Below, piece by piece: positions 6,595 to 45,888 of a DNA stretch of 64,000 bases. Each line of letters begins with the position of its first letter. Position 1 is the first letter of the stretch. The position numbers and the translations under genes were made by a program. The notes under the pieces were generated by a model. The model was given only the letters and a program-made list of their open reading frames with translations, had not been told where the DNA came from and made no database searches. The DNA comes from Lepus europaeus (taxonomy: Eukaryota > Chordata > Mammalia > Lagomorpha > Leporidae): positions 148,235,701 to 148,299,700 of the forward strand of contig NC_084827.1 of the NCBI RefSeq assembly GCF_033115175.1, in the 5' to 3' direction.

Positions 6595-6611
6595 GAAAGA
6601 AGTTCCATCAT

Positions 6612-7033
6612 CTTGGAAGGCTTCCATAGCCTTGGCAACTCATGATGAGAGCTTAGGGTGGTTACTGGCGCCATAAACTAGAGTGTCAATTTGTTGGGTC
6701 AACAACAGGAGTCACTGTGCACTTGCTCCTCATGTAGGATCTCTGTCCTTAATGTGCTGTATATTGTGATTTAATGCTATAACTAGTACTCAAACAGTAT
6801 TTTTCACTTTGTGTTTCTATGTGGGTGCAAACTGTTGAAATCTTTACTTAATATATACTAAATCGATCTTCTGTATATAAAGAGAATTGAAAATGAATCT
6901 TGATGTGAATGGAAGGGGAGAGGGAGTGGGAGAGGGGAGGGTTGCGGGTGGGAGGGAAGTTATGGGAGGGGGAAGCCACTGTAATCCATAAGCTGTACAT
7001 TGGAAATTTATATTCATTAAATAAAAGCTAAAA
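6612..7033 (+). mobile_element. 5'-truncated L1, 3' tail only (composite-type tail)
   Basis: A 422-bp L1 insertion consisting only of the 3' tail. It has the block CTAGAGTGTCAATTTGTTGG, the G-rich tract at 6910-6972 and the terminal ATTCATTAAATAAAAG. A 17-bp direct repeat GAAAGAAGTTCCATCAT flanks it at 6595-6611 and 7034-7050, a perfect target-site duplication. The tail carries the same diagnostic variants (GGCGCCATAAACTAGAG, TTGCTCCTCATG) as the two composite elements at 29.6 and 40.4 kb. It may therefore be a severely truncated member of that family. Confidence 0.92.
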
Positions 7034-7569
7034 GAAAGAAGTTCCATCATGACTGTTCTCTTTTCTTCTCATCTCCAACATATTCAAACTGATAGAGGAT
7101 CTCACATCTTTCTAAATTGTCAAAAGCTAGTGCAAAATCATTGGGAGGCAAATTACCCTACAGGCTTATCCCCTATCAAAGCTTCTCTCAATAATTGTTG
7201 AAATATCTCCAGTTCTAACTTGTACTCATGAGTAAGTAGCTCATCTTGAATTTGATTGAATATTTTATCATTATAGTAAATCTACTCCTCTGATCCTTCT
7301 AGCTTCAACTGTTGAATTGCCAGTAAAGGAAGAGAAGAAAATCTTAACCATTTCTACATATTTCACTGTCAATATTAAGAAGATCAGAAAAGATATGCTG
7401 CAAGGGTAATACTATCCTGTATTGATAGGAATGTCCTGTGACCAGTGAGGATATGGTATTGGGGGAAAGAAAACAGTCCTTGTTAAACACCAACTTCGAG
7501 CTAGACTCCCTGATCTGGTTTGGGAGACCAGATCTCTGGTCTGCTCGGGCATAGAAGTTGTCTATTGTT

Positions 7570-9344
7570 TTTTTTTTTTTTTAAACTTTTATTTAATGAA
7601 TATAAATTTCCAAAGTATAGCCCATGGGTTACAATGGCTTCCCCCCTCCCATAACTTCCCTCCCGCCTGCAACCCTCCCCCTTCCCGCTCCCTTTCCCCT
7701 TCCATTCATGTAAAGATTCATTTTCAATTCTCTTTGTATACAGAAGATCAGTTTAGTATATATTAGGTAAAGATTTCAACATTTTGCCCATATAGCAACA
7801 CAAAGTGAAAAAACTACCATTGGATTACTAATTATAGCATTAAATAGCAATGTACAGCACATTAAAGACAGAGATCCTACATAATTTTTTTTCAAATTAA
7901 TTAATTTTCTATGCCATTTCCATTTTAACACCAGGTTGTTTTTTTTTTTTTTCATTTCCAATTCTCTTTATATACAGAAGATCAATTCAGTATATAATTA
8001 GTAAAGACCTCATCAGTTTGTGCCCACACAGAAACGCAAAGTATAAAAATACTGTTTCAGTACTAGTTATAGCATCACTTCGCTTTAGACGACACATTAG
8101 GGACAGATCCCACATGGGGTGTAAGTACACAGTGACTCCTGTTGCTGATTTAACAATCTGACACTCCTGTTCATGGCGTCAGTAATCTCCCTAGGCTCTA
8201 GTCATGAGTTGCCAGGGCTATGGAAGCCTTTAGAGTTCGCTGACTTTGATCTTATTCCGATAGGGTCATAGTCAAAGTGGAAGTTCTCTCCTCCCTTCGG
8301 AGAAGGGTACCTCCTTCTTTGATGGCCCCGTTCTTTCCACTGGGATCTCACTCACAGAGATCATTCATTTAGGTCTTTTTTTTTTTTTCCATGATATCTT
8401 GTCTTTCCATGCCTGCTATACTCTCATGGGCTCTTCCGCCAGATCTGAATGCCTTGAGGACTGATTCTGAGGCCAGAGTGTTGTTTAGGACATCTGCCAT
8501 CCTATGAGTCTGCTGTGTATCCCACTTCCCATGTTGGATCTTTCTCTCCCTTTTTGATTCTATCAGTTAGTATTAGCAGATACTTGTCTTGTTTGTGTGA
8601 TCTCTTTGATTCTTAGACCTATCAGAGCTATCAATTGTGAGCTGAAATTGATCACTTGGACTAGTGCGATGGCATTGGTACATGCCATCTTGATGGGATT
8701 GTGTTGGAATCCCCTGGCACATTTCTAACTCCACCATTTGCGGCCAGTCCGATTGAGCATGTTCCAAATTGTTCATCTCCTCCCTCTCTTTTTCCACTCT
8801 TAGATTTAACAGGGATCACTTTTCAGTTAAAATTTAAACACCTAAGAATAATTGTGTGTTAATTACTGAGTTCAACCAATAGTACTAGAACAACAACAAC
8901 AACAAATACTAAAAAGGATAAAGTATTACATTGTACATCTAAAGTCAGGACAGGGGCTGATCAGTTCATTGTTGCTTATAGTGTCCATTTCACTTAACAG
9001 GTTTCCCCTTTGGCACTCAGTTGTCACCAATCAGGGAAAACAAATGATATTTTTCTCTTTGGGACTGGCTTAATTCACTCAGCATGATGTTTTCCAGATT
9101 GCTCCATCTTGTTGCAAATGACTGGGTTTCGTTGTTTCTTACTGCTGTATAGTATTCTATGGAGTACATGTCCCATAATTTCTTTATCCAGTCTACTGTT
9201 GATGGGCATTTGGGTTGGTTCCAGGTCTTAGCTATTGTGAATTGAGCTGCAATAAACATTAATGTGCAGATGGCTTTTTTATTTGCCAAATTAATTTCCT
9301 TTGGGTAAATTCCAAGGAGTGGAATGGCTGGGTTGTATGGTAGG
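7570..9344 (-). mobile_element. 5'-truncated L1 with ORF2 C-terminus and long 3' UTR
   Basis: A 1775-bp L1 insertion on the minus strand. The poly-A appears as T-rich 7570-7582. The 3' UTR spans roughly 7570-9016 and the ORF2 C-terminal coding part 9017-9344. A perfect 13-bp target-site duplication GTTGTCTATTGTT lies at 7557-7569 and 9345-9357. The 3' UTR contains two tail-like modules in tandem (about 7583-7900 and 7953-8200), separated by an A-rich junction (T-rich on this strand). The same arrangement is present in the insertion at 31351-32232, so it is a subfamily trait. ORF2 here is intact over the retained part, which suggests a fairly young insertion. Confidence 0.95.
9017..9344 (-). 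pseudogene. L1 ORF2 protein, C-terminal fragment (truncated)
   Basis: Uninterrupted reading frame of about 109 codons, entering from the truncated 5' end of the host element and ending in TGA at 9017-9019. It holds the conserved L1 ORF2p C-terminal words FTIAKTWNQPKCPST, DWIKK, EYYTAVRNNE and a terminal SLIGDN. The endonuclease, reverse transcriptase and most of the cysteine-rich region are absent, so the fragment is not functional. An internal ATG at 9287-9289 gives a 90-codon frame. Translation is not expected, because this is a dead 5'-truncated copy without a promoter. Confidence 0.93.
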
Positions 9345-19457: not shown

Positions 19458-20596
19458 GATCCAAATGCCATAAGGGCTGACTCTGAGGCCAGAGTGCTGT
19501 TTAGGGCATTTGCCATTCTATGACTCTGCTGTGTATCCTACTTCCCATGTAGGATCATTCTCTCCTTTTTAATTTTATCAATTATTATTTGCTGACACTG
19601 GTCTTATTTATGTAATCCCTTTGACACTTAATCCTATCTTTTTGATCAATTATGAACTTCAACTGATCACTTTGACTAGTGAAATGGCATTGGTACATGC
19701 CACCTTGATGGGATTGGATTAGAATCCCCTGGCACGTTTCTATCTCTACCATTAGGGGTAAGCCCGAGTGAGCATGTGCTGAACTGTACATCTCCTCCCA
19801 CTCTTATTCCCACCACTATATTTAACAGGGAGCACTTTTCAGTTAATTTTAAATGCCTAAGAATAATTGTGTGTTAATTAAAGAGTTCAACCAACGGTAT
19901 TAAGTAGAACAAAAAAATACTAAAAGGAATAAAATAGTAAGCTGTTACTCAACAGTCAGGACAAAGGCATTCAGATCTGGCTAAAAAGCCCATGGAAGTT
20001 TCGCAGGCATGAAAAGCCAAAACACACTGGCAAAAAAAAAAAAAAAAAAAAAAAGACTTAAATGAAAGATCTCTGTGAGATCCCAGCGGAAAGAACGGGC
20101 CATCAAAGAAGGAGGTACCTATCTCTAAAGGAAGAAGAGAACTTCCACTTTGACTAATAAGACTTGTCTAAATAAGATCGGAGTTGGTGAACTCAAGAGG
20201 CTTCCATAGCCTTGGCAGCTCATGACAAGAGCCTCAGGTGATCACTGATGTCATGAATAAGAGTGTCAATTGTTAGATCAACAACAGGAGTCACTGTGTA
20301 CTCTGTCCTTAATGTGTTGTACTATGCAAATTAATGGTAAAACTACTACTCAAACAGTACTGTGTACTTCATGTATCTGTGTGAGTACAGTTTGAAATCT
20401 TTACTTAGTATATACTAAGTTGATCTTCTGCATATAAAGATAATTGAAAATGAATCTTGATGAAGAACAGAATGGAAGAGGGAGTGGGAGATGGGATGGT
20501 TGTGGGTGGGAGGGAGGTTATGGGGGGAAGAGCCACTATAATCAAAAAGTTATACTTTGGAAATTTATATTTTAAATAAGTTAAAAAATAAGAAAA
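19458..20596. mobile_element. L1 insertion with 5' inversion (twin priming)
   Basis: The left part (19458 to about 19966) is L1 3' UTR in antisense: compare GAGGCCAGAGTGCTGTTTAG and TGGCATTGGTACATGCCA with the minus-strand L1 at 8.4-8.9 kb. The right part (about 19967-20590) is sense: CATTCAGATCTGG, then the G-rich tract and tail. The two halves meet at adjacent L1 coordinates. A near-perfect direct repeat AAGAATA(TA)ATAGCTA flanks the unit (19442-19457 and 20597-20610). This is the product expected of twin priming during target-primed reverse transcription. An internal A-run (about 20031-20054) is an expanded version of an A-tract in the L1 3' UTR. Confidence 0.88.
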
Positions 20597-29206: not shown

Positions 29207-29800
29207 CTTTTTTAGGAGTGGATCTTTACTCTATTTTCTTGATCTACCCATCCTCATCTTTTTCTCTTTACCAGTAAATGTAACCTCACTTGACTTCCAT
29301 CACTCTCCCTTCTTCTTTTTCTCAGCCTCCACTTTCTACCCCAAAGCTTTACCTTATCTCTGACCTGGAATGTCTGTGTTTTGGGCTCTTGTTTTATTAT
29401 CAAGTGAATTCTCTCTTTCTAAATCCAGTATCCTCTCAATAACATTTTTCAATAGATATTTAAGATTTCTAATCCTTTTTCCAATAGGAATTGAAGTGGG
29501 CTATAGATAAAATATACTTAGAAAGTAGCACTTATTGAAAATGAGAAATTTTATCAATGCTTCTATTGCAATTTGTTTTGTGCAAAAGATAGAAATTATA
29601 AATCTAGTAACCAATGATCCTAAGAGTGGCATTAACCAGCATTAAGTGGGGAAGAGGACCATCAGTACACACAGGTTGGGAGTAGAGCCATTGGAGGTAT
29701 AGTGGAGGTTATGATTACAAAGGAATGAGGCCCAAGTGCGCTAGACAGGGTCTAGAACAAAGGACAGAGTCATTATTAGAGGAGCTAAGAAAGGTGCTGT

Positions 29801-30454
29801 CTAAGCTACAAGTAATTTTTCTGATTGAGAGGCAAATAGAACCTGACAGAAGGGGCTTGATAATAATCTGTTGGGCTTTAGGTCTTGTAAGTTAAGAGGC
29901 CCAGACCTATCTATCTCTTCACATGGGGTACATCCTAAGGGAGGTGTGAACCTCCTAGGGGAAGGCACTCTGTTGACTTTCATTACTTGGCTGGCCTGGG
30001 AGGAGAGCTGGCCAGGTAAAGGCAGGGAGCATCTCTAACAAGAAATTTATAGTTCTGCCTGCAATGTTGCTGACCCTGCTTGGCCATACCCTCAGCTGCA
30101 GTGGTCACTTTGGAAGTTGGGCTGAGTGAAGGGCTTTTCAGCTTAGAGCCAATAAGATCTGTGGCTCTGACCTGGGCATCCTTCGACTCCAGGGCAGGTC
30201 CATTTCCAGTGATCCAACTCTTGGCAGAGTTGCCAGGGCTCTTCACAAGTTGACTTCTGCTGAAGCCCAGGCTTACCACATTGAAAGCCACTGCAGTGGA
30301 CTGGCCTGTTGGGTCTCCTTGAGGGCAAATCACTGTACAGATCAGCCATTAATAGGCCTGCCACCCATTGCTTCAGATGCCTAGCTTTCTTTTCCTCCTG
30401 GTTTGTGTTAAAGCAGACCAGAGGATGCAAGTCAAGGGAGTGCCCGTGTCCCAT
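29801..30454 (-). pseudogene. gag: Endogenous retrovirus gag remnant (CA end and nucleocapsid), copy A
   Basis: Retroviral Gag packages genomic RNA; its nucleocapsid binds RNA through CCHC knuckles. On the minus strand a 103-codon frame (30454 down to 30143) shows a lysine/arginine-rich capsid end followed by two knuckle-like motifs with the canonical C-x2-C-x4-H-x4-C spacing. In the first, the leading Cys is Gly and the His is Leu. In the second, the leading Cys is Trp, while C, H and the final C remain. Stop codons follow, and no protease or pol is recognisable. In this copy the capsid-to-nucleocapsid frame is continuous; copy B has a 1-bp deletion there. The fit is best to a class I (gammaretrovirus-like) ERV, which is an inference. 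It is embedded in an L1-mobilised element and lacks LTRs. Confidence 0.72.
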
Positions 30455-31350
30455 CTCTAATCTTCGGTGGCCTGAACTACAAGTCTATAGTCACAGGCAT
30501 GTTCTGTAGTAGTTTTTCTAAGGTAGACAATACCCATGAGGAAAATTATGTTCTCACTTTAAAACTTTCTTTCCCTTTGGTCTGAAAGGGAGGTTTTTTC
30601 TACTTACTGTATACTTTGCTTATGGCGAAGTAAATCTAGCTATGAGATTATTATTTAAGCTCTTATATTGGCTATGCTATTACAGAAAAATGTTAGCCAT
30701 CTCTTTTATAAGGTCTAAAGATTAAATTGTGCATTCTACAGATTCCTTCATATTAGAATTAGTTTCCTACCTTGAGGAAAATAGAGAAATGAAAGAACAA
30801 GTTGGGCTTAGAATAGAGAAATGAGGGAGCAAGTCCTAGATCACTTGCTGACAATAGCAAGCGATCCTCACCCTGTCTTTTATGACCTTGTCTAAATATC
30901 ATCAGAGTTGGCGAACTTGGTAGACTTCCATAGCCTTGGCAACTCATGACGAGAGCCTAGGGTGGTTACTGGCGCCATAAACTAGAGTGTCAATTTGTTG
31001 GGTCAACAACAGGAGTCACTGTGCACTTGCTCCTCATGTGGGATCCTTTCTTTAATGCGCTGTACATTGTGATTTAATGCTATAACTAGTACTCAAATAG
31101 TATGTTTCACTTTGTGTTTCTATGTGGGTGCAAACTGTTGAAATCTTTACTTAATATATACTAAATTGATCTTCTGTATATAAAGAGAATTGAAAATGAA
31201 TCTTGATGTGAATGGAAGGGGAGAGGGAGCGGGAGAGGGGAGGGTTGCGGGTGGGAGGGAAGTTATGGGAGGGGGAAGCCATTGTAATCCATAAGCTGTA
31301 CATTGGAAATTTATATTCATTAAATAAAAGTTAAAAAATAAAAAAGCCAT

Positions 31351-32232
31351 ACTCTCATGGGCTATACTATACCATGAGAGTATAGCAGGCATGGAAAGCC
31401 AAGATATCATGGAAAAAAGAAAAAAAAGACCTAAATGAATGATCTCTGTGAGTGAGATCCCAGTGGAAATAACGGGGCCATCAAAGAAGGAGGTACCCTT
31501 CTCCGAAGGGAGGAGAGAACTTCCACTTTGACTATGACCCTATCGGAATAAGATCGAAGTCAGCGAACTCTAAAGGCTTCCATAGCCCTGGCAACTCATG
31601 ACTAGAGCCTAGGGAGATTACTGACGCCATGAACAGGAGTGTCAAATTGTTAAATCAGCAACAGGAGTCACTGTGTACTTACACCCCATGTGGGATCTGT
31701 CCCTAATGTGTCGTCTAAAGCGAAGTGATGCTATAACTAGTACTGAAACAGTATTTTTATACTTTGCGTTTCTGTGTGGGCACAGACTGATGAGGTCTTT
31801 ACTAATTATATACTGAATTGATCTTCTGTATATAAAGAGAATTGGAAATGAAAAAAAAAACCAACCCGGTGTTAAAATGGAAATGGCATAGAAAATTAAT
31901 TAATTTGAAAAAAAAAATTATGTAGGATCTCTGTCTTTAATGTGCTGTACATTGCTATTTAATGCTATAATTAGTAATCCAATGGTAGTTTTTTCACTTT
32001 GTGTTGCTATATGGGCAAACTGTTGAAATCTTTACCTAATATATACTAAACTGATCTTCTGTATACAAAGAGAATTGAAAATGAATCTTTACATGAATGG
32101 AAGGGGAAAGGGAGCGGGAAGGGGGAGGATTGCGGGCGGGAGGGAAGTTATGGGAGGGGGGAAGCCATTGTAACCCATGGGCTATACTTTGGAAATTTAT
32201 ATTCATTAAATAAAAGTAAAAAAAAATTTAAA
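31351..32232 (+). mobile_element. 5'-truncated L1 nested in the poly-A of copy A
   Basis: L1 3' UTR in sense, with the duplicated-tail subfamily structure: first module to about 31850, an A-rich junction (31850-31920), a second module with the G-rich tract, then the poly-A end. The 18-base word AAAAAATAAAAAAGCCAT is identical at 31333-31350 and 32233-32250, giving the target-site duplication (length uncertain because it is A-rich). The first bases form a fold-back: about 13 bases of antisense L1 joined to the sense copy of the same bases. Confidence 0.88.
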
Positions 32233-32272
32233 AAAAAATAAAAAAGCCATAAAAAAAGAAATTATAAATCTA

Positions 32273-39678: not shown

Positions 39679-40253
39679 GCCGGCGCCGTGGCTCAATAGG
39701 CTAATCCTCCACCTTGCGGCGCCGGCACACCGGGTTCTAGTCCTGGTAGGGGCGCCGGATTCTGTCCCAGTTGCCCCTCTTCCAGGCCAGCTCTCTGCTG
39801 TGGCCCGGGAGTGCAGTGGAGGATGGCCCAAGTGCTTGGGCCCTGCACCCAATGGGAGACCAGGATAAGCACCTGGCTCCTGCCTTCGGATCAGCACGGT
39901 GCACCGGTCGCAGCTCACTGGCCGCAGCGGCCATTGGAGGGTGAACTAATGGCAAAGGAAGACCTTTCTCTCTGTCTCTCTCTCTCACTGTCCACTCTGC
40001 CTTGTGTTGCTATATGGGGGCAAACTGTTGAAATCTTTACCTAATATATACTAAACTGATCTTCTGTATATAAAGAGAATTGAAAATGAATCTTGATGTG
40101 AATGGAAGGGAAAAGGGAGTGGGAAAGGGGAGGGTTGCGGGTGGGAGGGAAGTTATGGGAGGGGGGAAGCCATTGTAACCCATAAGCTGTACTTTGGAAA
40201 TTTATATTCATTAAATAAAAGTTTAATAAATGAAAATAAATAAATAAATAAAT
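39679..40253 (+). mobile_element. CSINE2-L1 3' tail chimera
   Basis: 39679-40001 is a CSINE2 (GCCGGCGCCGTGGCTCAATA GG head) that stops at CACTCTGCCT, just before its usual A-tail. It continues without a gap into L1 3' tail (TTGTGTTGCTATATGG, G-rich tract, ATTCATTAAATAAAAG) and an (AAAT)n tail at about 40231-40257. The word AAAACACA borders it at 39671-39678 and 40254-40261. The simplest reading is a single chimeric cDNA made by template switching between L1 and SINE RNA, inserted in the A-rich end of the preceding CSINE. Confidence 0.82.
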
Positions 40254-40432
40254 AAAACACAATGAAGTTTCAGCTCACCCCAATTAGAATGGCTATCATC
40301 AAAAAATCAAAAAATAATAAATGCTGGCAAGGATGTGGGGGAAAATGTACCCTAATCCACTGTTGATGAGAATGCAAACTAGTACATCCATTGTGGAAGA
40401 CAGTATGGAGTGTCCTCAGAAATCTGAAAATA

Positions 40433-41356
40433 GGGAGAGTGGCAAGATGGCGGAATAGGCAGGGAGCACACTATTAGTCCAGGGGGAGAGAAAGTTTAAT
40501 ATAAGTGGAGATACTGCAGGGTCAAGGAAGAGTAGGGGATGAAACAGCAGAGGAAACTCTTCCGGAACTAGTGATTCACAGTGGACCTGCGTGGAGAGCG
40601 TGGGAGCCCAAGTTCGGGACACCAGCGGCAGACTCAACACACCAGCGCTGGAACGCGAGGTGAGCCGAACCTCAATAGCCCGAGATACCAGCGGGCAAGT
40701 GGAAAGAGGAGACTAGAGGGAACGAGGCTTGAAACTTCGTGGGGAAAAGTTCACCTGGCTAACTAGAAGAGAGAGAGGAAAAAAATTTAAAAAAAGTGAC
40801 CGATACTGACACAAGTTTCTCTCTCTCTGCTCACCTCTCAAAGGCGAGCAAGACAGAGCAGGCGCCATTTTGGACATACGTCATAAGCAGGGCGACCTCA
40901 GGTCTGCACCAGCCCTGAGCCTAGCAGAAACACCTGACTCTGTGGGGAGGGGTGAAATAACAGGAGATTAGCATCTAACTTGGCAACCCAGTGGGAGACT
41001 GCAGGAGAATTGGAGCCCACACTGAGGGCAGCAGAGATTCCCTGTGTGGTCCTTGGGAAAGAGCTTCTGATCTCTGGCTCCTTTGGGTATATCATTCACC
41101 TGCAAACTACCTCCAATTACGTTCAGCTGTGCAGAATTACTTCCCTTTTGAATCAAAAAAAGAAAGAGAGATTTACCACACCTAACCTGGGAGTGTCATC
41201 TTTGACACACCCTCAACCCTGAGGAACCAAACACAGCTCTCAGTCCACACTCATCTCAAGCCTCTAAGGCTCCACCGAAAGCAGACAGTCCACTTAATAT
41301 AGAGCCATAGTGTAACAAGAAAAAACACCACAGTGAAGAAACCAAATATCTCCAAC
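40433..41356 (+). promoter_or_regulatory. L1-type 5' UTR / internal promoter of the composite element
   Basis: About 920 bp, less AT-rich than its surroundings and with retained CpGs. It starts exactly at the target-site duplication with GGGAGAGTGGCAAGATGGCGG, so the 5' end appears complete. L1 5' UTRs contain an internal RNA polymerase II promoter. Function here is inferred from position and the YY1-like motif only. Confidence 0.7.
40443..40453 (+). promoter_or_regulatory. YY1-like motif at the element start
   Basis: CAAGATGGCGG, eleven bases from the 5' end, matches the YY1 core (AAGATGGCGGC-type). In human L1 an equivalent site near the 5' end directs accurate start-site choice. A second YY1-like word in reverse (GGCGCCATTTT) lies at about 40861-40871. 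Confidence 0.65.
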
Positions 41357-42393
41357 ATGCCAAACAACAAACGCAAAAACCGAGGTAACAAGAACAAGGA
41401 AGAAACTATGACGCCCCCAAATGAAAAAGACACCCCAATTCAAGATTACGAAGATGATGAGATCGAAGAAATGCAAGAAGCGGATCTCAAAACATTGATA
41501 AGAACATTAAGAAGTTCTCAAAAACAAATTCTTGAACTACAGAAATCCTTAATGGACAAGATAGAAAATCTCTCTCATGAAAGTGAAATATTAAGGAGGA
41601 ATCAAAATGAAATGAAACAACTAGTGGAACAAGAAACTCTGATAGTGACGAGAAATCATAATGAAATGAAGAACTCAATAGATCAAATGACAAACACATT
41701 AGAGAGCCTTAAAAACAGAATGGGCGAAGCAGAAGAGAGAATATCAGACTTAGAAGACAGAGAACAGGAAAGGAAACAGGCAAACCAAAGAAAAGAAGAA
41801 GAAATTAGAAATCTAAAAAATATTGTTGGGAATCTACAGGATACTATTAAAAAACCCAACATTCGGGTTCTAGGAGTTCCTGAAGGCATGGAGAGGGAGA
41901 AAGGATAAGAAGGCATTTTCAGTGAGATACTAGCAGAAAATTTCCCAGGTTTGGAGAAGGACAGAGGCATCTTAGTACAGGAAGCTTATAGAACCCCTAA
42001 TAAACATGACCAAAAGAGATCCTCACCACGACATGTTGTAATCAAACTCACCACAGTGAAACATAAAGAAAAGATCCTAAAAGGTGCAAGAGAGAAACGT
42101 CAGATTACTCTTAGAGGATCTCCAATTAGACTCACAGCAGACTTCTCATCAGAAACCCTACAAGCTAGAAGGGAATGGTGAGACATAGCCCAGGTACTAA
42201 GAGAGAAAAACTGCCAGCCCAGAATATATATCCTGCAAAACTCTCATTTGTGAATGAAGGTGAAATTAAGACTTTTCATAGCAAACAGAAACTGAAAGAA
42301 TTTGTTACCACTCATCCTGCCCTGCAAAAGATGCTTAAAGATGTCTTACACACAGAAACACAGAAACATGGTCACCAATATGAAAGAAGGTAA
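41357..42393 (+). pseudogene. L1 ORF1 protein gene, disrupted
   Basis: L1 ORF1p is an RNA-binding trimeric chaperone that coats the element RNA. The start ATG at 41357 (MPNNKRKNRG) is preferred to the upstream in-frame ATG at 41333 because it matches the family's basic N-terminus. Residues about 45-160 form a heptad-rich coiled coil. The RRM starts near NIRVLGVPEGM, and the C-terminal domain has RLTADFSSETLQARREW and YPAKLSFVNEGEI. Total length is about 345 codons, close to the usual 338. It is broken by TAA at 41906-41908, TGA at 42179-42181 and a 1-base frameshift near 42225. The final frame ends in TAA at 42391-42393. Confidence 0.95.
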
Positions 42394-42429
42394 AGGAAGG
42401 AAACCTCACAGCAAAAGATCACAGGAAGC

Positions 42430-43800
42430 TCAATTTCTCTTTGACATAGAATTAAACTCTGATGCTCTGTTAAATCAATGTGTTAAAGTAATCTATTATG
42501 TTCTCTTGATGTCTGTTAAATTCTAATTGTTCAAAAACAGCTGAATTTTTATTAAGAGCTATGGGTTATTTAAATGTGTGCTTATTTTCAAAAATTTGAA
42601 TAATCACCTTGTAACAATGATCAAATTTGGTCTATGTTATGTCATGATTTTAAGAAATCTTATTTCAACCAGATATTTTGGATTTTGAGCCTTCTTGGCA
42701 CTCTTGACAGGCATTCAAAAAATCAAAGTTTCAAACAATCTGGTCTCTAAAATTTCCAGTAAATCCTGGACTTTGGTTTTTCCAGTTTGGGCCCAACTGA
42801 AAAAATCAAAGGACCTATGTCTCTCATCTTATAGAGACACCAACTAATCAGTCTATTTGGATTATATTAGAAGGACTGTCAAGATGTGATGTGGTACCAG
42901 ACTTTAAGTTTCTATAATGGAAAATGCTATTAATACAAATGTTTGAGAATTAAAAAGTCTAATGATCTTGTGTTACTAGACATGATAGTTATCTTAATGA
43001 GAAAGCCCCAGAGGCCTAAAGGGTTAAATACTTGTAAAATCCTACAGGTGCTTTCAAAAATACTGTGAAGTAAGCAAGTGCCTCTTGTTGGTTGATGAGT
43101 TTATAATTTTAAACATGGTGACTTAAAGTCTTTTGTCATCCACAGTTATATATGATGTGCTGCTCATAAAACTAAAGCGTTGTTGGTTCTGTGTTTAGCT
43201 GTCCTCCTATAGGTTCCTATGGACTTTTTCCAGCCACTTTTATTGTATTCAGTACTTTGGGATAGCTCTGTAAACAGATGAAGCCAATAATGTATTAACA
43301 GTACCAACTGAGAGAAAGTATGGTTAACTGAGGTTACTAAAAAGAAAAAGCAATTCAAATCAATTGGCAATCTACAAAAAGAGTTAAAGATTTTAAAAGC
43401 TATTATTAAAATTGCTATATTGGTCTATTATGCTATATTATATGTGTGTACATATTGTATGTCCACATGGGGAAATTTTATTAAGAGTTTTATTTTAAAT
43501 GGCTTATAGATAAGATTGTCCATATATTTAAGCTGCTAAAATCAATCAAAGATACATTTTAATTTGAGTGACCTGAATCTGTGTATCATATGTTTTAAAC
43601 ATGTTGGTAGAAAGAAACTAAAAACATTTTAGATGGATGTGCTTAAGTTTACTGGTTAAACAAACTACACCATGTTAGATATTTAAGAGGTGTTTTCAAA
43701 TACATGATTCTTAAAATTTATAGAAGGCATTGGACCTTCTGGTAAATGTTTTCTTAAGTTGTTATCTAATGGTTGAAACGGTTTGCTAAGTATTCATGTG
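42430..43800 (+). other. Unrecognised AT-rich filler of the composite element, proximal part
   Basis: This block replaces ORF2: no endonuclease motif, FADD box, or long frame exists on either strand. The longest frame is 68 codons (43164-43370, minus). It contains no CSINE, LTR ends, or L1 tail words. Composition is AT-rich with T-rich and A-rich patches. It may be decayed retroviral sequence upstream of the gag nucleocapsid or another captured RNA. It lies inside the target-site duplication, so it is part of the mobile unit. Confidence 0.6.
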
Positions 43801-44032
43801 ATATTGCTATTGTCAGCAAGCGATCTAGGACTTGCTCCCTCATTTCTCTATTCTAAGCCCAACTTGTTCTTTCATTTCTCTATTCTCTTCAAGGTAGGAA
43901 ACTAATTCTATTATGAAGGAATCTGTAGAATGCACAATTTAATCTTTAGACCTTATAAAAGAGATGGCTAACATTTTTCTGCAATAGCATAGCCAAAATA
44001 AGAACTTAAATAATAATCTCATAGCTAGATTT

Positions 44033-44051
44033 ACTTCGCCATCAGCGAAGT
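44033..44051. other. Short perfect hairpin in the composite filler
   Basis: ACTTCGC, a 5-base loop, then GCGAAGT. In copy A the corresponding site (minus strand near 30615-30635) has mismatches (ATAAGCAAAGT), so the stem is not conserved. Probably fortuitous. Confidence 0.4.
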
Positions 44052-44209
44052 ATACAGTAAGTAGAAAAAACCTCCCTTTCAGACCAAAGGGAAAGAAAGT
44101 TTTAAAGTGAGAATATAATTTTCCTCATGGGCATTGTCTACCTTAGAAAAACTACTACAGAACATGCCTGTGACTATAGACTTGTAGTTCAGGCCACCGA
44201 AGATTAGAG

Positions 44210-44862
44210 ATGGGAAACGGGCACTCCCTTGACTTGCATCCTCTGGTCTGCTTTAACACAAACCAGGAGGAAAAGAAAGCTCGGCATCAGAAGCAATGGG
44301 TGGCAGGCCTATTAATGGCTGATCTGTACAGTGATCTGCCTCAAAGAGACCCAACAGGCCAGTCCACTGCAGTGGCTTTCAATGTGGTAAGCCTGGGCTT
44401 CAGCAGAAGTCAGCTTGTGAAGAGCCCTGGCAGCTCTGCCAAGAGTTGGATCACTGGAAATGGACCTGCCCTGGAGTCGAAGGATGCCCAGGTCAGAGCC
44501 ACAGATCTTATTGGCTCTAAGCTGAAAAGCCCTTCACTCAGCCCAACTTCCAAAGTGACCACTGCAGCTGAGGGGATGGTCAAGTAGGGTCAGCAACATT
44601 GCAGGCAGAACTGTAAATTTCTTGTTAGAGATGCCCCCTGCCTTTACCTGGCCAGCTCTCCTCCCAGGCCAGCCAAGTAATGAAAGTCAACAGAGTGCCT
44701 TCCCCTAGGAGGTTCACACCTCCCTTAGGATATACCCCATGTGAAGAGATAGATAGGTCTGGGCCTCTTAACTTACAAGGCCTAAAGCCCACCAGATTAT
44801 TATCAAGCCTCTTCTATCAGGTTCTATTTGCCTCTCAATCAGAAAAATTACTTGTAGCTTAG
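44210..44862 (+). pseudogene. gag: Endogenous retrovirus gag remnant (CA end and nucleocapsid), copy B
   Basis: Same Gag fragment as copy A. The capsid end is in the frame from 44210. The two nucleocapsid knuckles follow in another frame, 44374-44418 and 44428-44469, because of a 1-bp deletion near 44337-44343. In knuckle 1, Cys1 is Gly and His is Leu. In knuckle 2, Cys1 is Trp but Cys (44437), His (44452) and Cys (44467) remain, with D-H-W-K between. Stops follow. A 60-codon open stretch (44680-44862) beyond it is shared with copy A but has no recognised domain. No LTR, primer-binding site, pro, pol or env is identifiable, so the fragment is non-functional. It was carried by L1-type retrotransposition. 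Confidence 0.72.
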
Positions 44863-45085
44863 ACAGCACCTTTCTTAGCTCCTCTAATAATGACTCTGTC
44901 CTTTGTTCTAGGCCCTTTCTAGTGCACTTGGGCCTCATTCCTTTGTAATCACAACCTCTACTCTACCACCAATGGCTCTACTCCCAACCTGTGTGTACTG
45001 ATGGTCTTCTTCCCCACTTAATGCTGTATAATTGTTCAAACCTGGTAAATGCCACTCTTAGGATCATTAGTTACTATCCTCACTC

Positions 45086-45552
45086 TGTCTTTTATGACCT
45101 TGTCTAAATATGATCAGAGTCAGCAAACTTGGAAGGCTTCCATAGCCTTGGCAACTCATGACGACAGCCTAGGATGGTTACTGGCGCCATAAACTAGAGT
45201 GTCAATTTGTTGGGTCAACAACAGGAGCCACTGTGCACTTGCTCCTCATGTGGGATCTCTGTCCTTAATGTGCTGTACATTGTGATTTAATGCTATAACT
45301 AGTACTCAAATGGTATGTTTCACTTTGTGTTTCTATGTGGGTGCAAACTGTTGAAATCTTTATACTAAATTGATCTTCTGTATATAAAGAGAATTGAAAA
45401 TGAATCTTGATGCTAATGGAAGGGGAGAGGGAGCGGGAGAGGGGAGGGTTGCGGTGGGAGGGAAGTTATGGGAGGGGGAAGCCATTGTAATCCATAAGCT
45501 GTACACTGGAAATTTATATTCATTAAATAAAAGTTAAAAAAAATGAAAAAAA
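45086..45552 (+). mobile_element. L1 3' tail of the composite element
   Basis: Homology to ordinary L1 3' UTR begins at TTTATGACCTTGTCTAAATA and continues through CTTCCATAGCCTTGGCAACT, the G-rich polypurine tract (about 45416-45480) and ATTCATTAAATAAAAG to the A-rich end. L1 3' tails provide the polyadenylation signal, and the G-rich tract may aid ORF2p recruitment. It shares subtype variants with 6612-7033 and 30864-31332 and lacks the duplicated tail module of 7570-9344. Confidence 0.9.
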
Positions 45553-45888
45553 AAATCTGAAAATAGATCTACCACATGATCCAGCCATCCCAATCCTGGG
45601 AACTTACCCATTCCAAATGAAATCAGCATATGAAAAAGTTATCTGTACTCCCTGTGTTTATTGCAATCCACAATAGTTAAAATTTGGAACCAACCCTAAT
45701 GTCCATGAATTGATGTCTGGATAAAAAAAATGTGGTGTATATAATAGCTATCGAATACTCCACAGCCATAAAAATAATTAAATCACATCTTTTGCAACAA
45801 AATGGATGCAATTGGAAATCATTATTGTCCCAAAAAGACAAATATTATTATGTTTTCTCTGAAATGTAGTAGTTAATATAGAATACAG

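Follow-up and report, generated by a model that had tools for sequence, protein, structure and literature searches.

HAL1 elements are derivatives of the LINE-1 (L1) retrotransposon that retain only the first open reading frame (ORF1) and that have originated on several occasions in mammals (PMC5753468), and for the guinea pig HAL1 the ORF1 protein (ORF1p) has been proposed to act on its own RNA (PMC3627910). SVA elements are nonautonomous, L1-mobilized composites with a part derived from HERVK10 (PMC5753468), and chimeric L1 insertions have been described in which L1 is joined with other RNA through recombination (PMC13174262). In the 64-kb stretch of DNA presented above (the window), the element at positions 40433 to 45552 is laid out as L1, the interior of a long terminal repeat (LTR) element, and L1 again, with a middle part (the filler) of 2.66 kb. 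It belongs to a real, young, many-copy family, and we consider it very probable that this is a composite, nonautonomous L1 family of the HAL1 type that captured an LTR-element interior and depends on the second L1 protein (ORF2p) acting in trans.

The composite element recurs throughout the genome

An earlier note, made from the letters of this DNA alone, had described a unit between perfect 13-bp repeats in which a foreign stretch of about 2.65 kb without ORF2 separated an L1 ORF1 from an L1 3' tail, and had proposed a HAL1-like family. Its outline was accurate. The exact 13-bp target-site duplication AAATCTGAAAATA occurs within the window only at the two flanks of the composite unit, the edges of the foreign stretch (42430 and 45091) lie within a few bases of the joints that it had claimed, and the L1 tail is present from about 45093.

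The window's own assembly (2.93 Gb, 649 contigs) was searched with the element, the best 40 candidates being scored for each DNA query; the candidate totals are loose first-look figures and not a census. With the ORF1/filler joint as the query there were 908 first-look candidates, and with the filler/tail joint 1045; for each joint all of the 40 scored matches, one of them the window copy, covered all 201 bases at 99 to 100% identity. For two filler pieces used as queries, there were 412 and 430 candidates, the best 40 of each being 99 to 100% alike. From the 40 scored ORF1/filler matches, we fetched 20 (the first eight rows plus 12 picked by hand, excluding the row of the window), and their blocks were 96.4 to 98.9% identical to the window copy, about 97%, with the neighboring L1-tail blocks of L009 (82% and 88%) and L014 (68%) set aside. 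Nine of the 20 copies (L011, L013, L014, L016, L017, L020, L021, L026, and L027) had target-site duplications that reached 13 bp or more and contained no more than one mismatch, and all nine duplications differed from one another; shorter or offset duplications were found in L010, L019, and L024. The 5' region of the composite, which we take to be of L1 origin, recurs together with the remaining unit in other genome copies. The filler/tail joint was present in 27 of the 28 loci L009 to L036 (L031 is the window copy itself), the exception being L022; L032, L034, and L035 were 5' truncated within the filler, and L028 showed twin priming. The marks of L1-type mobilization, namely, an A-rich tail, target-site duplications, 5' truncation, and inversion, are all found in the family. 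The joints, which might have been unique to this locus, are shared by many copies at different target sites.

The median pairwise divergence was 2.2% and 2.3% for two filler pieces, 2.6% for ORF1, 2.5% for the tail, and 3.4% for the 5' region (12 to 19 rows depending on the piece, the window copy among them, after copies not reaching within 6 bases of the piece ends were dropped), and these figures are biased young because the copies were chosen by likeness to the window. At usual mammalian rates, a family age of a few million years would be our guess. Three of the 20 fetched copies (L011, L016, and L023) have in common an internal deletion of 553 bases (window 42602 to 43155) together with nearby substitutions, so the family holds at least one sublineage. 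Splicing was rejected as the origin of this deletion, since its ends lack GT-AG and the common substitutions point to descent. Late match starts were seen in L012, L018, and L025 (element positions 788, 1162, and 945, respectively), and in L018 and L025 sequence like the 5' end of the element lies directly upstream of the match, as after an internal 5' deletion.

The composite leaves L1 before ORF2 and re-enters it in the 3' untranslated region

The ORF1 of the composite was identified as L1 ORF1 by Pfam (PF02994, E = 3e-17, in 41951 to 42181) and also matched LINE-1 ORF1p chains in PDB (E of about 9e-6); its sole named protein match was a rabbit L1 ORF1 (P0003; 88% over 51% of the query). The identity that the earlier note had given to this reading frame was therefore correct, but in the window copy two in-frame stops and a frameshift break the frame, and the stop at its normal end lies at 42391 to 42393.

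When the genome was searched with P0003, 62,224 candidates were returned, of which 147 were scored at 89 to 92%, and in the top eight loci the sequence was read for about 450 bases, starting at the ORF1 end. Four of these (L064, L067, L068, and L070) match the composite to 42433 and then enter the start of ORF2, presumably with its L1 endonuclease sequence; three (L065, L066, and L069) are themselves composites; and in the last, L071, the match likewise ends at 42433, with other sequence beyond. At the opposite end, other L1 tails match the composite from about 45090 on, and upstream of that point they continue in the 3' untranslated region (3' UTR), with no counterpart in the composite. The composite, then, leaves L1 at 42430 to 42433, before ORF2, and re-enters it in the 3' UTR at about 45093; its tail is 75 to 88% like the other L1-type tails in the window at 20146, 31533, 31920, and 40002. 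A Pfam search of 11 of the 50 filler frames gave no ORF2-like match, only two unrelated sub-threshold matches. ORF2 is replaced by the filler. The filler was rejected as ordinary L1 sequence, since ordinary L1s run into ORF2 at 42433, and is the interior of an LTR element instead. With recurrent joints and a filler foreign to L1, both of the checks that could have overturned the HAL1-like reading came out in its support.

The filler is related to the interior of an LTR element

A homologue search with the gag-like frame of the filler returned two proteins without names, P0010 (99%) and P0011 (63%), and P0011 gave 19,813 candidates in the genome, of which 150 were scored at 62 to 91% amino-acid identity. 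The eight loci cut out from these count as four independent groups, since L045 to L047 are near-identical, as are L048, L050, and L051. All four groups carry filler sequence, together covering 42686 to 45095 at 79 to 87% identity in blocks of >150 bases (short blocks reach 93%), and the stretches carrying it contained no match to L1 ORF1. Sequence further upstream was read in three of the four groups, and over L045 to L055 as a whole the filler was 77 to 87% alike in blocks of >150 bases. In L054 and L055 the match begins precisely at 42430 and is preceded by other sequence, and in L053 it begins only at 42991, with an LTR upstream; it ends at 45091 in L048, L050, and L051 and at 45095 in L052.

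Direct repeats of 0.3 kb were found in L048 at 971 to 1293 and 2675 to 2990; they are 88% alike, both begin with TGGTAGCTTTGG, and the first is directly followed by TGGTGCCAAAACC, which we take to be primer-binding-like. No clear target-site duplication was found around the L048 LTR unit. L053 together with L049 forms a 5.3-kb copy with an L048-type repeat at both ends. No match to the L048 LTR was found in the window element, and about 150 to 160 nt of the LTR-element copies are missing from the composite at 45038/45040. By these alignments, the filler comes as a single piece from the interior of one LTR element and lies in sense orientation. The alternative of two unrelated pieces, one AT rich and the other gag-like, was rejected, as the LTR-element loci show one continuous interior. 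L1-type tails were also seen within about 0.3 to 2 kb of LTR-element copies (L047, L048, L050, L051, L054, and L055); these were taken for separate insertions.

The filler had been read in the earlier note as retroviral gag with two CCHC knuckles at 44374 to 44469. An origin from the interior of an LTR element was borne out, and gag-like sequence covers at most about 44.2 to 44.7 kb, the remainder being AT-rich sequence from within that LTR element. The gag-like stretch is spread over three reading frames and presumably corresponds, in the expected order, to the last part of a capsid, a nucleocapsid, and the beginning of a protease. The knuckles are degenerate: a six-frame scan of the filler found no strict CCHC motif (CX2CX4HX4C), none was found in the second window copy or the 20 fetched loci, and the one CX4HX4C in the filler (CQELDHWKWTC) lacks the first Cys. 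A homologue search with the knuckle frame gave no match. In comparison with eight Gag_p30 loci from this genome (L037 to L044), the second knuckle aligned with real knuckles at E = 0.035, and unrelated pieces scored equally; the same loci were rejected as a direct source of the filler, the longest nucleotide match being 37 bases (E of 0.78). Viral contig scans and one genome contig scan gave nothing informative. What had been read as gag can be no more than a degenerate remnant, and the LTRs of the relatives are a stronger argument for retroviral origin than the gag motifs; an origin from a class I, gamma-like endogenous retrovirus (ERV) is likely. Gammaretrovirus-like gag stretches are numerous in this genome (PF02093: 1454 candidates, 150 scored, all above the cut-off), many of them with long open frames.

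ORF1 variation among the copies

An intact ORF1 of 345 codons was present in 10 of the 20 fetched copies, and five of the 20 stop short of the ORF1 start. Variants were counted among the ten intact ORF1s, for which the neutral expectation of the silent share is 0.278. Variants common to at least two copies comprised 13 silent and 11 replacement changes, an excess of silent changes (P = 0.006), and private variants, seen once, were near neutral (24 silent and 48 replacement; P = 0.18); all variants pooled gave 37 silent and 59 replacement changes (P = 0.015). Variants common to several copies trace the source lineage, and the silent excess among them points, in this small sample, to an ORF1p that acts on the composite's own RNA, as proposed for the guinea pig HAL1. 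Four ordinary L1 ORF1s from the same genome, also of 345 amino acids and closely related to the composite ORF1, formed one group apart from the ten composites in an ORF1 tree (support, 0.996).

Origin and mobilization of the composite

At the left joint, the composite reads GGAAGCTCAATTTCTC, L1 reads GGAATCTCAAACCATA, and the LTR element reads AATCTATTTCTC; at the right joint, the corresponding sequences are TCTTTTATGACCTTG for the composite, TCTTTTATATTACAG for the LTR element, and GACTATGACCTCG for L1. A few bases are common to the partners at each joint (TAT at the right joint), and these seem to fit template switching and also end joining. In the mechanism that we propose, the element RNA would run from an L1-type 5' region through ORF1, the first ~40 nt of the inter-ORF spacer, and 2.66 kb of LTR-element interior to an L1 3' end, in which the last ~460 nt of the 3' UTR would be followed by a poly(A) tail. 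The source of the LTR part would be an older element, probably class I ERV-like. ORF1p made from the element would bind its own RNA, the ORF2p of ordinary L1s would supply nicking and reverse transcription in trans, and the LTR-element cargo would be carried along as noncoding sequence. Less surely, the join may have arisen by template switching of the reverse transcriptase during one L1 insertion, and one such chimeric copy may have founded the whole family.

Several points weigh against this account or parts of it. The sequences at the joints do not tell template switching from a join at the DNA level, being compatible with both. The copies were chosen by likeness to the window joint, which favors young ones, and the copy number rests on loose first-look counts; eight of the 20 fetched copies had no clear duplication, the 3' end lying outside the locus in L015 and L022. 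The selection test rests on 24 common variants from intact copies only, and in 16 complete ORF1 rows, intact or not, the variant sites at the three codon positions numbered 34, 48, and 56 (common ones, 9, 12, and 14), a weaker tilt. Pfam and PDB searches of the filler pieces tried gave no retroviral match.

The chance that unrelated adjoining insertions merely look like a composite is negligible: nothing beyond the initial view of a single locus speaks for it, and a single-locus artefact was ruled out by the 40 of 40 scored matches that span each joint and by the differing target sites. A join made in genomic DNA, by insertion of an LTR-element part into an L1 with deletion or by nonhomologous repair, followed by transcription of the founder, is a serious though less than even possibility. 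The filler lacks both LTRs and the stretch missing at 45038/45040, as decayed genomic DNA could, and a single origin suffices for the entire family; such a join would, however, require two clean breaks in L1 and a piece in sense orientation with no LTR remaining, and the short overlaps at the joints suit template switching equally. The family might be moved wholly by L1 ORF1p and ORF2p in trans, its own ORF1 being a passenger, as in SVA. We regard this as rather unlikely. SVA and LAVA are mobilized in trans by L1 proteins (PMC7353768, PMC5753468), and ORF1 is not intact in the window copy and in 10 of the 20 fetched copies, but the enrichment of silent changes among the common variants (13 of 24), next to private variants that look neutral, argues against a mere passenger. 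The HAL1-type family with an ORF1p of its own remains our preferred reading. An extension of it, in which a lasting L1 lineage without ORF2 keeps ORF1 under selection and the LTR-element RNA is itself useful (for example, in RNA export, stability, or escape from silencing), seems improbable at present; if true, the L1 and LTR-element parts would work jointly as a new kind of composite retrotransposon.

Features, second copy, and other L1 tails in the window

The features of the composite and of a second copy in the window are collected in Table 1.

Table 1. Coordinates of the composite element and of its second copy in the window
Feature	Position	Strand	Remarks
Left target-site duplication of second copy	29591..29606	+	AGAAATTATAAATCTA; sole other occurrence in window at 32257-32272
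Second copy, inverted part	29605..30860	-	Corresponds to 43804-45076, 95.5%
Second copy, direct part	30864..31338	+	Corresponds to 45076-45541, 94.1%; includes filler/tail joint
Right target-site duplication of second copy	32257..32272	+	AGAAATTATAAATCTA; beyond nested L1-tail insertion
Left target-site duplication	40420..40432	+	AAATCTGAAAATA, exact; sole other occurrence in window at 45553-45565
5' untranslated region, presumably L1-type	40433..41356	+	Match begins within first 10 bases of element in 14 of 20 fetched copies
L1 ORF1, 345 codons when intact	41357..42393	+	Pfam, PDB; broken in window copy
Start of L1 inter-ORF spacer	42394..42433	+	Ordinary L1 and composite diverge at 42430-42433
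Filler, LTR-element interior in sense, without LTRs	42430..45091	+	Matches loci L045-L055
Degenerate gag/protease-like stretch, three frames	44230..44720	+	Motifs presumed; no family-model match
Truncated L1 3' untranslated region and A-rich tail	45093..45552	+	Resembles other L1-type tails in window
Right target-site duplication	45553..45565	+	AAATCTGAAAATA

The second window copy (29605 to 31338) is a twin-primed composite: its inverted and direct parts both break at one element position, and an inverted front with a direct back breaking at a single position is a known twin-priming outcome of L1 insertion. It contains a nested, later L1-tail insertion with its own repeat, AAAAAAGCCAT, at 31340 to 31350 and 32240 to 32250. 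Within the A-rich terminal part of the second copy, these repeats enclose a unit in which two partial L1 3' tails follow each other (31350 to 32241) and which is found again, inverted, at 7565 to 8430, the two being 97 to 98% alike. A tail-only copy at 6612 to 7037 matches the composite tail at 93% and is flanked by a 17-bp repeat (6595 to 6611 and 7034 to 7050); its source could be the composite or an L1. The composite itself seems to have been inserted into older sequence of the same orientation (40240 to 40419 and 45566 to 45700), which we take by resemblance to be L1 ORF2-like. An Rfam search gave two miRNA matches, both under their cut-offs.

Comparison with known retrotransposons

Like HAL1, the composite is an L1 derivative with ORF1 and without ORF2, for which ORF2p is presumed to act in trans and in which ORF1 has been kept coding (PMC5753468, PMC3627910). 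It has a coding L1-derived ORF1, not intact in the window copy, no ORF2, and the marks of L1-type mobilization. A body of L1 sequence only is typical of HAL1, though not a formal rule, and since the composite departs from it by its 2.66-kb LTR-element filler, we call it a HAL1-like composite rather than a plain HAL1. The available portions of the HAL1 papers mention no such cargo in place of ORF2 (PMC5753468, PMC3627910).

Nonautonomous ERV-like LTR elements of the same genome (L048; L053 with L049) have an interior related to the filler, at 77 to 87%, but they have 0.3-kb LTRs and, after the 5' LTR, a presumably primer-binding-like TGGTGC; the composite has no LTR match and does not carry the LTRs at both ends that mark an endogenous retrovirus or LTR element. 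In chimeric L1 insertions, the foreign sequence treated in the available portion of PMC13174262 arrives beside L1, whereas the foreign piece of the composite is internal and the chimera has been amplified into a family. For the rabbit, three families of <1% and 36 of <5% divergence have been reported, and the table names only LTR families for this species; the 36 are not named in the available part of the paper, so the composite family may be among them (PMC3183009). No ORF1-only L1 with an LTR-element body was seen to be named, for rabbit, hare, or otherwise, in the literature searched, a scope that left out most subscription papers and the repeat libraries.

SVA resembles the composite in being nonautonomous and in having an endogenous-retrovirus part in its body (PMC5753468). 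The two differ in construction: SVA is built of Alu, variable-number tandem-repeat (VNTR), and SINE-R parts, and the composite, which has no such Alu-like, VNTR, and SINE-R modules, has L1 itself, with a coding ORF1, as its 5' half. SVA is not known to code for any protein. The best-known composite retrotransposons that include a retroviral part are the SVA elements of apes, and here a lagomorph-like genome holds one whose L1 half is coding, with many young copies and with relatives of its two parents, ordinary L1 and the LTR element, in the same assembly. This raises the questions of whether a nonautonomous element needs an ORF1p of its own and whether captured retrovirus-like RNA aids its spread.

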